Origin: an uncultured Bacilli bacterium
GTDB taxonomy: Bacteria; Bacillota_I; Bacilli_A; RF39; UBA660
Length of the DNA: 64,000 nt
Reading direction: 5' to 3'
Assembly: GCA_944358445.1 (NCBI GenBank)
Contig: CALVRC010000005.1
Span: 1-64,000, forward strand
Shown: positions 378 to 22,115 of the stretch, piece after piece
Numbering within the stretch: position 1 is the stretch's first letter
Layout: the number at the start of each line of letters is the position of its first letter
Translations under genes and position numbers: made by a program
Notes under the pieces: generated by a model
Told to the model about the DNA's origin: nothing
The model's input: the letters and a program-made list of their open reading frames with translations, nothing else
The model's database searches: none

Positions 378-791
378 ATGGAGACAAGAAAATTTGTAGG
401 AACTGGTCGTAGAAAAGCATCTGTTGCTAGAGTACAAATGGTACCTGGTAAGGGAACTATTACTGTAAATGGTAGAGATGTTAGAGAGTTCTTCCCATAT
501 GAGACTAATATTATGGATTTAATGCAACCTTTAGTTGCAACAAATAATGAAAATACATTTGATATTACTGTAAAAGTAAATGGTGGTGGATTTACTGGTC
601 AAACTGGTGCTATTCGTTTAGGTATTACTAGAGCTTTACTTCTTTATGATAAGGAAAATGAAGGTAAAGAAGATAGTTATAGAAAAACTTTAAAAAGAGC
701 TGGATTTGTTACTCGTGATCCTAGAGTAAAAGAAAGAAAGAAACCTGGATTAAAAGGTGCACGTAGAGCTCCACAATTCTCAAAGAGATAA
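378..791 (+). CDS. rpsI: 30S ribosomal protein S9
   Basis: A 137-residue protein of the usual S9 length. The N-terminus reads [14 protein letters not shown], and the C-terminus is the S9 signature ending in SKR, the tail that contacts P-site tRNA in known ribosomes. The glycine-rich segment [17 protein letters not shown] around residue 70 is typical. A strong ribosome-binding site (TAGGAGGA) lies 6-8 bases before ATG, overlapping the rplM stop. It is co-transcribed with rplM and followed directly by an intrinsic terminator. Confidence 0.98.
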
Positions 792-18913: not shown

Positions 18914-19003
18914 TTAAATCACCATGAATATTATAACATAAAGGTATGTTATAATACGAGATAAATGTTATATGCTTAATAAACTGATGTAGTTATGTAA
19001 TTC

Positions 19004-19032
19004 TTGAAATAAACTTAATTTTATGTTATTAT
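19004..19032 (+). promoter_or_regulatory. Promoter of the putative antitoxin RNA
   Basis: TTGAAA (19004-19009), 17 bases, TATTAT (19027-19032). The predicted start is at about 19040, right at a 5' hairpin. Confidence 0.65.
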
Positions 19033-19039
19033 GTATATA

Positions 19040-19160
19040 GATGAGAGAAATCTCATAAAATAAAAAAGGGAATACTTAACAACCCAAAGTTGAGTACTCG
19101 CCAAATTATTGGTCTAGCACTTAATCTACTGATGAAAGTAAATTGAGTGCTTTTTCTTTT
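19040..19160 (+). ncRNA. Candidate antitoxin RNA of a type I-like locus
   Basis: From the 19004-19032 promoter this RNA would begin with hairpin ATGAGA-GAAA-TCTCAT (19041-19056). It contains a segment at 19068-19102 that resembles the 5' leader of the opposing transcript, and ends at a strong terminator: AGCACTTAAT (19116-19125) with ATTGAGTGCT (19142-19151) and a T-run. It has no convincing reading frame. Its 3' half overlaps the predicted 3' end of the minus-strand toxin mRNA. Its AGCACTTAAT can pair with ATTGAGTGCT in the toxin leader. Confidence 0.6.
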
Positions 19161-19169
19161 TATAATTCA

Positions 19170-19244
19170 TTATTTAAATAATAAAATTATAAGTAGAAGG
19201 ATGATAATGATTAAAGCAAAGATTAAAAAATCTTTTTTAGTCAT
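19170..19244 (-). CDS. 24-residue hydrophobic peptide, candidate type I toxin
   Basis: Minus-strand ATG at 19244 encodes MTKKDF followed by an almost unbroken Ile/Leu helix and FK at the end: a charged start and a single membrane helix, as in Fst/TxpA-like type I toxins. The ribosome site GGGAGGTGGGG is very strong but folded into a stem (CCTCC-gaag-GGAGG), a hallmark of translationally silent toxin mRNAs. A near-consensus promoter lies at 19300-19328. I do not recognise the exact family. It could also be a harmless small membrane protein. Confidence 0.65.
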   Translation of the reverse strand: MTKKDFLIFALIIIILLLIILLFK

Positions 19245-19245
19245 T

Positions 19246-19266
19246 TCCCCACCTCCCTTCGGAGGC
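19246..19266 (-). promoter_or_regulatory. Hairpin hiding the ribosome site of the hydrophobic peptide
   Basis: On the minus strand CCTCC pairs with GGAGG around GAAG (plus-strand 19252-19265), so the Shine-Dalgarno sequence is the 3' arm of the stem. Confidence 0.7.
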
Positions 19267-19299
19267 AAGCACTCAATTGTTAAAATATTCCCTGTATAC

Positions 19300-19328
19300 A
19301 TTATATAATATAACTATTCGTTATACAA
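19300..19328 (-). promoter_or_regulatory. Promoter of the hydrophobic-peptide mRNA
   Basis: On the minus strand TTGTAT, 17 bases, TATAAT. The predicted start is at about 19293, giving a leader of about 50 nt before the ATG. Confidence 0.65.
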
Positions 19329-19357
19329 GTGAACGTTTATGAAAATGACTAATTAAT

Positions 19358-19386
19358 TTGGAATAAAATTATAGGTATGTTATAAT
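19358..19386 (+). promoter_or_regulatory. Promoter of the 19406 gene
   Basis: TTGGAA (19358-19363), 17 bases, TATAAT (19381-19386). Confidence 0.7.
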
Positions 19387-19405
19387 TTGTTTAGAGGGTG
19401 ATTGT

Positions 19406-20305
19406 ATGCATTTTCTTAAAAGTTTTGTAGCAGGTTTATTTACTTTAGTTTTTGGAGTTTTGGTGGTTGCGACTATATGTGTTTTTAGTATAAGTGCTTT
19501 TGCGACTAAAGATAATATTGTGAATAAGATGCAGGATACAGACATATTAACTGAGGTTAAGAAAATTAGAAATAGTGGTAGTACTGAAGGTGCTAGTGGA
19601 GTTACGCAAGTTATTGATGAGATGTATTCTTTAGCTTCACAATTTTCAGTTTCTGAAGAAGTGGTTGATCAAATTATCGATTCTGATTTAACTAAAGAGA
19701 TTATTGGTGAAGCGGTTGGAAATTTAACTGATTATATGGTTAATGATAAAGATACAAAAGCATTAACTGAAGAAGATGCATATAATTTAATAAGTGATAA
19801 TTTAGATGAAGTTTTAGAAGAAAACGATTTAACAATTGATGAAGGTCAAAAAGAAAAATTTTTAAGAGAAGTGGAGAAACAACTTCCAGATATTATTGAA
19901 GTTATTCCTACTTCTGAAGATTTACTTGGAAGTAGTTATGGTTCTGATATAGAAAGAATTCAAATAATTTTTAGCGATAATACAAAAATACTTTTATGTG
20001 CGAGCTTAGTTATAAGTGGTGCGATAGTAATTGTTCTTAAGAGAAAAGAATTTGAATGGTGTGCGAATTTAGGTGTTGCATTATTGATTGCTGGTCTTGT
20101 GACGATAGGAATATCATTTGTTATGCCGGGAATGGTTATCGATATTATGGGAACAACAGATTTATCAATGTTTGCTTCATCTTTAACAGATGCGCTTGCG
20201 GAGCCAATTTTATATAGTGGTATTGGTGTTCTCGTTTTAGCAGTACTTCTATTTATTTTCTATAAGATTATGGAAAAAAGAAGAGATAATAAAATTAAGA
20301 GCTAG
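19406..20305 (+). CDS. Hypothetical four-helix membrane protein
   Basis: 299 residues. One hydrophobic helix lies at 8-30, followed by an outside acidic helical domain of about 150 residues (many Asp/Glu, for example EEDAYNLISDNLDEVLEEND). Three more helices lie at about 190-290, then the basic tail KRRDNKIKS. This layout (helix, large outside loop, three helices) recurs in uncharacterised Firmicutes membrane proteins. I cannot name a family. GAGGGTGAT precedes ATG. Its last bases overlap the convergent XRE gene by 4 bases. Confidence 0.75.
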   Translation: MHFLKSFVAGLFTLVFGVLVVATICVFSISAFATKDNIVNKMQDTDILTEVKKIRNSGSTEGASGVTQVIDEMYSLASQFSVSEEVVDQIIDSDLTKEIIGEAVGNLTDYMVNDKDTKALTEEDAYNLISDNLDEVLEENDLTIDEGQKEKFLREVEKQLPDIIEVIPTSEDLLGSSYGSDIERIQIIFSDNTKILLCASLVISGAIVIVLKRKEFEWCANLGVALLIAGLVTIGISFVMPGMVIDIMGTTDLSMFASSLTDALAEPILYSGIGVLVLAVLLFIFYKIMEKRRDNKIKS

Positions 20306-20705: not shown

Positions 20706-22115
20706 ATGAAAAGAAAATTCAATAGAACTAATAGAAATTATATAATAGCCGGATTATGTATGATATTAGTAATAATGGGAGTAGGGTATGCGGCGTTTTC
20801 TAGTCAACTTAAAATATCAGGAACATCAAATATAGCAAGTAACTTTAGCGTAAGAATATCTAATATACAAAGTAAAGTTTTAAATGGTAATGCGAGTGAT
20901 GCAGAGGCACCAACACATACAGATACAACAGCAACATTTAAAACCAATTTAGTAAGCCCAGGAGACAGTATGCAGTATGATATTACAGTAATTAATGAAG
21001 GAGATATTGATGCTGTACTTAACAGTATACAGGTAAATACTGGAAATAATGATGCTATATTATTTGAAACATATGGAATAAATGAAGGAGATGCCTTACT
21101 TAAAGGAGCAACTGATGTACTTACAGTTATAGTAAGATATGATAGTAGTGTGACAAGGCAACCAGAAAATACAGAATCAACAATAACTGTAACATTAGAT
21201 TATGGGCAATCTAGTGGAACAGCAGTGCCAGGTGGTGCAGTAACACTTCTTGGAGGACAGTCTGTAGATGTTGTTGATAGTGGAGATGGGCTATATGCTG
21301 ATGAATATGAGTTCGGAAGATATATTTATAGAGGACAAAACCCAAATAACTATATAACATTCAATGGAGAAACATGGAGAATCATAGCCAAAGAAACAGA
21401 CGGAACATATAAAATAATTAGAAATGATGTTTTAGCAAGCCGACCATTTGATGAAGCAAATCACCGAAGTACAGAAAATAACTCATATTGCCAAAACTCA
21501 GAATACGGTTGCGGAGTATATGCAGCAGTTGATGAAACATTTTCATCACCAAGTGGATCACAAAGTGGAACAGTCACCGAAGATTCTTCTATAAAAATAT
21601 ATTTAAATGATGATTATTATGTAAATAATTTAAATAGTACAGCTAAAGGACAAATGACTTCTCATTTATTTAATATAGGAGCAGTAGAATGGTTAGACCA
21701 AAGTGGAGCTGAAGCAGATAGTATAGAAAAAAATATAGCAGGAGAGAAAATGGACCAATGGACAGGAAATGTAGGACTAGCTAACGTATCAGATATCTTA
21801 AGAGCAAGTACAAACCCACTATGTACATCAGCAACAACTTCTATAGAAGGTACAAAAAATGAATGTAATAGTAATTACTTATTAGATAAAGGAGCAGCAA
21901 GTGGATTACATTACTGGACAATAAATGCTTTTTCTTTCGAGTCTGGTGGTTATTCGTCTCACACCTGGAAGGGTTCTGTGACTAGTTCATACGCGTCGAT
22001 GAACTTCATTTCTGCGCACAATATTCGTAACGCTCCCCGCCCAGTTGTCTTTTTGAAATCTGATACTACTTTGAGTGGAAGTGGAACTTCAGAAGATCCA
22101 TTCACTATAGTGTAA
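20706..22115 (+). CDS. TasA-type secreted surface protein with variable-region-like C-terminus
   Basis: 469 residues. The N-terminus has a basic start, one helix (IIAGLCMILVIMGVGYAAF) and then SSQLKISGTSNI, the pattern of TasA/camelysin-type exported proteins. A beta-rich domain with VSPGDSMQYDITVINEGDI follows (about 75-155). From about residue 195 a second domain starts (GRYIYRGQNPNNYITFN, WRIIAKE) and ends in PRPVVFLKSDTTLSGSGT. Between residues ~410 and ~455 base and codon use change abruptly (see the 21937-22070 entry). The ATG has AAGGAGAAAGG upstream. Confidence 0.8.
   Translation: MKRKFNRTNRNYIIAGLCMILVIMGVGYAAFSSQLKISGTSNIASNFSVRISNIQSKVLNGNASDAEAPTHTDTTATFKTNLVSPGDSMQYDITVINEGDIDAVLNSIQVNTGNNDAILFETYGINEGDALLKGATDVLTVIVRYDSSVTRQPENTESTITVTLDYGQSSGTAVPGGAVTLLGGQSVDVVDSGDGLYADEYEFGRYIYRGQNPNNYITFNGETWRIIAKETDGTYKIIRNDVLASRPFDEANHRSTENNSYCQNSEYGCGVYAAVDETFSSPSGSQSGTVTEDSSIKIYLNDDYYVNNLNSTAKGQMTSHLFNIGAVEWLDQSGAEADSIEKNIAGEKMDQWTGNVGLANVSDILRASTNPLCTSATTSIEGTKNECNSNYLLDKGAASGLHYWTINAFSFESGGYSSHTWKGSVTSSYASMNFISAHNIRNAPRPVVFLKSDTTLSGSGTSEDPFTIV
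21937..22070 (+). other. GC-rich, codon-atypical 3' block resembling a DGR variable region
   Basis: Upstream codons of this gene end mostly in A. Here they switch to C, G and T (TTC, GAG, TCG, CAC, ACC, GCG, CGC). G+C in 21961-22020 is 29 of 60 bases, against 16 of 60 in 21841-21900. The block lies in the last part of the protein, just where DGR variable regions lie in their target genes, and is followed closely by GC hairpins. No reverse transcriptase or template repeat is inside the window, so this rests on composition and position. Confidence 0.45.

Follow-up and report, generated by a model that had tools for sequence, protein, structure and literature searches.

Two predicted promoters face each other across positions 19,004 to 19,328 of the window, the 64,000-nt stretch of DNA from an uncultured Bacilli bacterium analysed here, and the question is what the short interval between them encodes. 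The initial annotation took it for a type I toxin-antitoxin locus, a reading that is supported by the family of related loci described below. We consider it probable that the locus is a chromosomal type I toxin-antitoxin module in which an antisense RNA pairs with a toxin mRNA at two places, the leader and a 3' overlap.

Converging elements of the locus

On the plus strand, the putative promoter of the antisense RNA (TTGAAA-17-TATTAT, with TG before the -10; 19004..19032) is supported by its sequence and by family counts, both hexamers matching at four or more of six positions in 118/132 family loci versus 2.8% of shuffles. On the minus strand, the putative toxin promoter (TTGTAT-17-TATAAT; 19300..19328) was assigned by sequence; its weak -35 matches at 3/6 positions and the promoter scan missed it. 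Both sequences are present where the initial annotation had placed them, and the convergence of promoters across the family was counted on the antisense side and established by listing on the toxin side. Since promoter matches alone are at chance level in this A+T-rich region (9 found versus 8.4 +/- 2.9 expected), the significance of the elements of the locus lies in their conservation.

The antisense RNA would extend from ~19039 to ~19160 on the plus strand (~120 nt), inside a match to the covariance model R1 (19033..19174, 110.9 bits), and no plus-strand ORF of at least 20 aa lies wholly within it. Near its 5' end is hairpin 1 (GATGAGAGAAATCTCAT, 19040-19056, with ATGAGA-GAAA-TCTCAT at 19041..19056), the GAAA hairpin already recognized in the initial annotation, which covaries across the family. 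A run of A (19062..19067) separates it from hairpin 2 (GGGAATACTTAAC..GTTGAGTACTCGCC, 19068..19102), a same-sense relative of the toxin leader. The RNA would end in the strong terminator that had also been annotated, a hairpin with arms at 19116-19130 and 19137-19151 followed by a T-run (19116..19160). The terminator scan listed none at the locus, probably because the stem has internal mismatches. The antisense strand folds with a z of -6.7 relative to shuffled sequence.

The toxin mRNA would be read from the minus strand and be ~230 nt long. Near its predicted 5' end lies GGGAATA (19286..19292), complementary to the 3' part of the same mRNA at 19068-19074. Further downstream are the leader core, AATTGAGTGCTTGCC (19264..19278), which is complementary to the 5' arm of the antisense terminator, and a ribosome site, GGAGG, that can pair with CCTCC in a 5-bp stem with the loop gaag (19265..19252), as first annotated. 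The predicted toxin, MTKKDFLIFALIIIILLLIILLFK (19170..19244, stop codon 19172..19170), is a class A peptide. Its 24-aa ORF is on the minus strand as the initial annotation had it; the description of the peptide as all-hydrophobic does not hold, and the M-K-K start that had been given is in fact M-T-K-K-D. Beyond the stop codon, the mRNA carries an anti-leader copy, AGCACTCAAT (19142..19151, minus strand). Hairpin 2 (19068..19102), read on the minus strand, is a candidate toxin mRNA terminator hairpin, for which the A-run at 19062..19067 would provide the U-tract. A run of at least five A between hairpins 1 and 2 is found in 127/134 loci, and we infer that hairpin 2 and this run, on the other strand, look like the terminator of the toxin mRNA. 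Here the antisense terminator lacks a T-run on the opposite strand, and this separate candidate toxin terminator is present.

A multicopy antisense RNA family and its peptides

The antisense RNA belongs to a family with many copies per genome. A 25-nt pattern of its 5' hairpin occurs 10 times in the bacterium's own genome (1.43 Mb) versus 0 times for the reversed pattern, and R1 identifies at least 12 antisense copies there; the copy number of 12 recurs in several genomes and is a lower bound. A DNA search of the same genome returned more copies, with the two longest genomic matches 73% identical. R1 is based on alignment A1, comprising 48 of 66 non-redundant antisense sequences picked by hand. 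Across these 48 sequences, the three predicted hairpins show clear covariation: 97.0% of cells are paired, 16/21 pairs have double changes, none of 500 shuffles reached the observed value on even one of five measures, and hairpins slid out of register pair at only 30-48%. Hairpin 1 is the most conserved part (100% of cells paired, 2/6 pairs changed on both sides), while double changes affect 7/8 pairs of hairpin 2 and 7/7 pairs of the terminator hairpin. Rfam has no match to 18950-19400 up to E 1.

The locus belongs to a widespread family, with R1 matches in 41/44 genomes of the genus. Among 395 genomes of the class, 36 match, namely the own genome, 34/53 others of the family (counted from a listing that places family genomes first) and 1/341 outside the family, in a scan that scored up to eight candidates per genome with stricter filters that may lose weak matches. 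A scan of the phylum (392 genomes) gave 10 matching genomes; the same family accounts for 9, counting the own genome. The named records are metagenome-assembled genomes (MAGs) of uncultured Bacilli, Bacillales, Candidatus Coprosoma and Candidatus Faecisoma, and a small number bear the label Ruminococcus or Clostridium; in the NCBI taxonomy, Faecisoma falls under Mycoplasmatota and Coprosoma under Bacillota, each incertae sedis. From these sequence data, we conclude that the candidate type I toxin-antitoxin family is real and widespread, and that it is multicopy and chromosomal. Separately, lone matches occur in two genomes from other families (L159 in G225, and G566:C20:3042), for which horizontal transfer or misbinned contigs are possible explanations. 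An exact 24-nt hairpin pattern had 0 matches in viral contigs, and a phage or plasmid origin was set aside, as just one short partial match was found for each (20% and 13% of the query).

Published work on type I toxin-antitoxin systems in Faecisoma, RF39, Tenericutes, Mollicutes and metagenome-assembled genomes, in mostly non-subscription coverage, names no such family, and judged from the literature searched the family is apparently undescribed. It would give a lineage whose named records are MAGs new classes of peptide and a new family of antisense RNA.

To examine the peptides, we first pruned 187 R1 hits by hand, removing duplicate records across two collections as well as the cut-off L120 hit; a script then condensed them to 134 distinct loci. 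At 102 of these, the strand opposite the antisense RNA carries a hydrophobic ORF of class A, B or C that has a ribosome site; its stop codon falls between +106 and +140 of the antisense locus, and its start in most cases between +190 and +211. The peptide picker requires a hydrophobic ORF with an SD and was run without a random control; because of that requirement, the count of 102/134 is not, by itself, independent proof. Since the picker selects hydrophobicity, independent evidence for the peptides comes from their shared sequences and from coding constraint. Several of the 102 are imperfect (L035_2701 has no leader, L059 and L165 are aberrant and L121_2513 is over-long). By sequence, the predicted peptides form at least three classes, reading like MNKKDFLILSLIIIIF.. 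in class A, MTKREKALYAIISLLFILIFIILFK in class B and MKTKTFTLKVLKLISIILFLLIILIIVIKK in class C. A fourth class (D), read by eye in Faecisoma-type loci, enters no count, and at Faecisoma-type loci L084, L088, L093, L097 and L119 the picker selected a frame other than the one we prefer.

Substitutions in the peptide genes point to coding constraint. The ratio of nonsynonymous to synonymous changes is 0.33 in the predicted frame versus 0.67 and 2.14 in the other two, and the reverse-strand frames give 0.62, 0.59 and 1.75; the in-frame value is the lowest of the six but not alone below 1. These ratios derive from 1339 pairs differing by 5-30%, and the pairs are not independent. When five peptides were compared with Pfam and NCBIfam, chance matches alone were obtained up to E 10, and in PHROGs there were weak matches to entries of unknown function in that database, phrog_35062 to a class B peptide (E 0.0074) and phrog_9990 to the window peptide (E 0.21).

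The predicted peptide gene is closely tied to the antisense gene. In ten relatives, 67/68 class A/B peptide genes have an antisense RNA gene opposite them, and the sole unpaired hit begins 90 bases from the end of a contig, which leaves too little room for an antisense gene. In the own genome, all 8 class A/B hits below E 1e-9 are at antisense loci. Conversely, 37/104 antisense genes in the ten relatives have no class A/B peptide; elsewhere, antisense loci of this kind carry class C peptides or are themselves remnants, such as two copies on C15 (L034). A peptide that is almost never found without the antisense RNA, and an antisense RNA that is often found without the peptide, is the asymmetry predicted for a toxin-antitoxin pair. 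It weighs against a small membrane peptide that is under antisense control but non-toxic and serves in regulation or structure, an alternative that we consider improbable; the peptides do resemble small membrane proteins in general, yet both this gene pairing and the ribosome-site hairpins described below are at odds with it. As a side observation, the two antisense copies with a decayed peptide gene (L034 1090-2822; G000:C15) adjoin pieces of a RelB-YafQ type II module, with Pfam matches to RelB and, in two separate ORFs, to YafQ_toxin.

Ribosome-site hairpins and leader pairing

Toxin leaders were analysed at 89 loci, the remaining 13 of the 102 having been left out as they have no recognisable GGAA leader in range. 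In these leaders, predicted hairpins that end at or in the ribosome site score clearly above shuffles, with a mean of 15.2 versus 9.5, a score of at least 12 in 65/89 leaders versus 20% of shuffles, and a score above the leader's own shuffle mean in 83/89; the difference shrinks when the threshold is lowered to 8 (86/89 leaders versus 66% of shuffles). The stems vary widely, from CCTCC/GGAGG to CCAATTCT/AGAATTGG and CTTCT/AGAAG. At least five bases of the site are covered in only 45/89 leaders, and none in 21. The locked site of the window is, as far as these predictions go, typical in kind but not universal in degree.

Two kinds of repeat connect the leader with the rest of the locus. A direct repeat, with AGCACTTAAT at 19116-19125 (plus strand, the start of the antisense terminator 5' arm) and AGCACTCAAT at 19268-19277 (on the plus strand, inside the leader core), makes the two predicted RNAs complementary at the leader. 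Through an inverted repeat, the 5' leader is complementary to the 3' part of its own mRNA, and an antisense hairpin becomes a same-sense look-alike of the leader. The initial annotation had noted the related inverted leaders, and the related leaders do covary within a locus; it missed the direct repeats and the family. It had also recognized fst/RNAII-like convergent logic, which is borne out by the convergent promoters, the leader-complementary direct repeats and the ribosome-site hairpin, although the annotation had attributed that logic to the inverted repeat.

For the 89 loci, antisense RNAs and toxin leaders were placed in separate alignments, and all pairs of columns between them were scored. 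The top helix of this all-columns scan joins the 5' arm of the antisense terminator (GCACCT) to the leader core (GGGTGC), which sits just upstream of the ribosome-site hairpin, with a score of 1.97 versus a maximum of 0.51 in 40 within-class permutations. Per column, this arm and the leader can pair in 85-100% of loci over eight columns; in one column, the pairs are GC 29, CG 18, AU 12, UG 9, UA 8 and GU 5, with 8 unpaired (n=89). Cognate pairing between leader and antisense RNA is 0.875 versus 0.809 +/- 0.0065, a value not equalled in 5000 permutations, and when partners were swapped between nearest neighbours the cognate was better in 53 loci, worse in 19 and tied in 17. The cognate duplex energy, -22.0 versus -20.5 +/- 0.27 kcal/mol, was likewise not reached in 2000 permutations; class C (9 loci) shows no cognate advantage in energy (-20.3 versus -20.5).

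The leader also covaries with the toxin mRNA itself, at least as strongly as with the antisense RNA. Paired with the mRNA's own copy after the stop codon, the leader scores 2.27 (0.906 versus 0.816, 0/5000), and the leader 5' end pairs with the mRNA 3' part at 0.892 versus 0.834 +/- 0.0065 (0/5000). An attempt to separate the two partners by sequence failed, there being few informative positions inside the stem; of the four flanking positions (62/89 loci usable), the antisense partner fits better at three and the mRNA's own copy at one. The covariation shows that the leader is matched within its locus, without choosing between the antisense RNA and the own 3' copy as its predicted partner. The loci share ancestry, and homogenisation within a locus could contribute to the covariation.

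These observations bear on how the module would work. In the arrangement that we favour, the minus-strand mRNA would encode a single-helix membrane peptide toxin, and the full-length mRNA would be poorly translated, with its ribosome site held in or against a hairpin and its leader paired with its own 3' part. The plus-strand RNA, transcribed convergently, would overlap the 3' part of the mRNA, and the 5' arm of its terminator would bind the leader immediately before the ribosome site. Leader pairing and 3' overlap would together lead to blocked translation, degradation of the duplex, presumably by an RNase, or both. If the antisense RNA were lost or delayed, the peptide would be freed, insert in the membrane and slow growth.

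Another version of a type I module, which we hold to be rather unlikely but the closest of the alternatives in probability, confines the action of the antisense RNA to the perfect 3' overlap and degradation of the duplex, similar to TxpA/RatA, with the leader covariation reflecting a 5'-3' fold-back that keeps new mRNA silent, similar to hok and AapA. The slightly higher score of the leader with its own 3' copy than with the antisense arm is consistent with this version, as are the covariation of the leader 5' end with the mRNA 3' part and the predicted 5'-to-3' folding of the full-length mRNA at -77.4 kcal/mol (z -7.4 versus shuffles). The pairing of the terminator 5' arm with the leader across eight columns, and the three of four flanking positions that favour the antisense partner, argue against this version.

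A miniature inverted-repeat element, whose terminal repeats would be the GGGAATA..GCC segments, could account for related inverted segments (19068-19102 / 19264-19292) that are multicopy and sometimes in tandem, but it would not be expected to have two converging promoters, coding constraint and covarying interior hairpins. Moreover, the divergence of the copies is old, as their identity indicates, yet the repeats match best within a locus. A mobile miniature element was set aside on the promoter, coding and covariation evidence, and we regard this explanation as extremely improbable.

For the favoured module, we tentatively suggest an origin, which is possible though somewhat short of probable: the antitoxin RNA may be a mirror copy of the toxin leader that arose by inverted duplication of the leader hairpin. 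Hairpin 2 would resemble the leader on one strand and serve as the toxin terminator on the other, and any single change would have to be repeated in all three of the leader, the antisense terminator and the mRNA 3' part. The mRNA would lock itself, and its lock and its antitoxin would consist of the same letters. Approximately a dozen specificities per genome could then keep each copy wired to its own antitoxin. Small genomes with up to 12 or more copies offer natural covariation by which the insulation of paralogous type I modules can be tested, and they raise the question of what purpose so many modules serve in one genome.

Known type I modules, a promoter dyad and neighbouring sequences

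The par_pAD1 system (Fst / RNA I-RNA II) is described as having convergent promoters, direct repeats, a stem-loop that hides the ribosome site and a helix that sequesters the 5' end (PMC7472228). The locus studied here shares with par_pAD1 and its chromosomal homologues the convergent promoters and 3' overlap, DNA direct repeats that create a second complementary region at the toxin leader, the ribosome-site stem-loop and an intramolecular helix sequestering the mRNA 5' end. It differs in its antisense RNA, ~120 nt with a conserved 5' hairpin versus ~40 nt, and in that the end of the toxin mRNA apparently lies past the antisense body and not at one shared terminator. Fst/Ldr peptides are marked by a P/D/S/TxxxG(C) helix motif in the majority, a conserved Trp (absent in the pAD1 prototype) and a highly charged C-terminal tail. 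Among the 102 peptides of the present family, by contrast, PxxxG, the form of the motif that was counted, occurs in 0, G anywhere after residue 5 in 2 and Trp in 1; at least three charges in the last seven residues are found in 0/102 and at least two in the last five in 11/102, and the peptides have no Pfam or NCBIfam similarity. Judged from sequence, the regulatory plan is fst-like, yet the peptide is not an Fst/Ldr member.

In Bacillus subtilis, TxpA/RatA and BsrG/SR4 are convergent with 3' overlaps of ~75 and 120 nt, as published (PMC4147584). Convergent genes with a long 3' overlap are common to these systems and the predicted module, but TxpA has 59 aa versus the 24 aa of the window peptide, and RatA is not complementary to the region where translation starts, whereas the leader is complementary here. 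Ibs is a very short toxic peptide. Five Ibs/Sib copies are noted for Escherichia coli MG1655 in the same publication (PMC4147584). Multicopy chromosomal repeats with a very short peptide are a shared feature, but Sib spans the whole ibs coding region and its ribosome site, while the overlap here would be 3' only, with leader contact made via a separate repeat. In hok/Sok and AapA/IsoA, the mRNA 5' end pairs with the 3' end to give a silent full-length message. Such 5'-3' pairing is predicted here as well; the present analysis shows neither a leader ORF nor mRNA processing.

The spacer of the putative toxin promoter contains an operator-like dyad, TATAACTATTCGTTATA (19309..19325). The exact form TATAACNNNNNGTTATA (TATAAC-N5-GTTATA) occurs at 6 places in the genome, 6/6 in toxin promoters of the family, and with up to two mismatches the dyad is found in 44/87 toxin promoters (~2 expected by shuffling) and 17/131 antisense promoters. 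Allowing one mismatch gives no genome-wide enrichment (32 versus 29 for the reversed pattern), so that only the exact matches and the within-promoter counts support it. By eye, the dyad is missing from the more distant genera examined, and a LexA-type operator was set aside. Because the dyad partly coincides with the -10 region, we put forward a putative operator just as a suggestion. A variant dyad, TATCACGAATAGTTATA, lies near the starts of C11 and C14 (11-27 in each) and inside G000:C4 at 15542; these copies may be toxin promoter remnants or another repeat.

Several further features were observed near the locus or its relatives. At 18929-18956 of the window, a perfect 12-bp inverted repeat, TATTATAACATA-aagg-TATGTTATAATA, lies upstream of an HI0933-like flavoprotein gene, and TATGTTATAAT is found again where the promoter of the gene at 19406 is expected. 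By eye, a family copy is located just upstream of a DNA polymerase IV-like gene in L033 (~500-640, minus strand), and L104 is alike. The window also encodes, at 20706-22115, a large protein with no Pfam match at E 0.001, and a relative that looks similar by eye is found in the same genome on C4 (L132 1000-1420).
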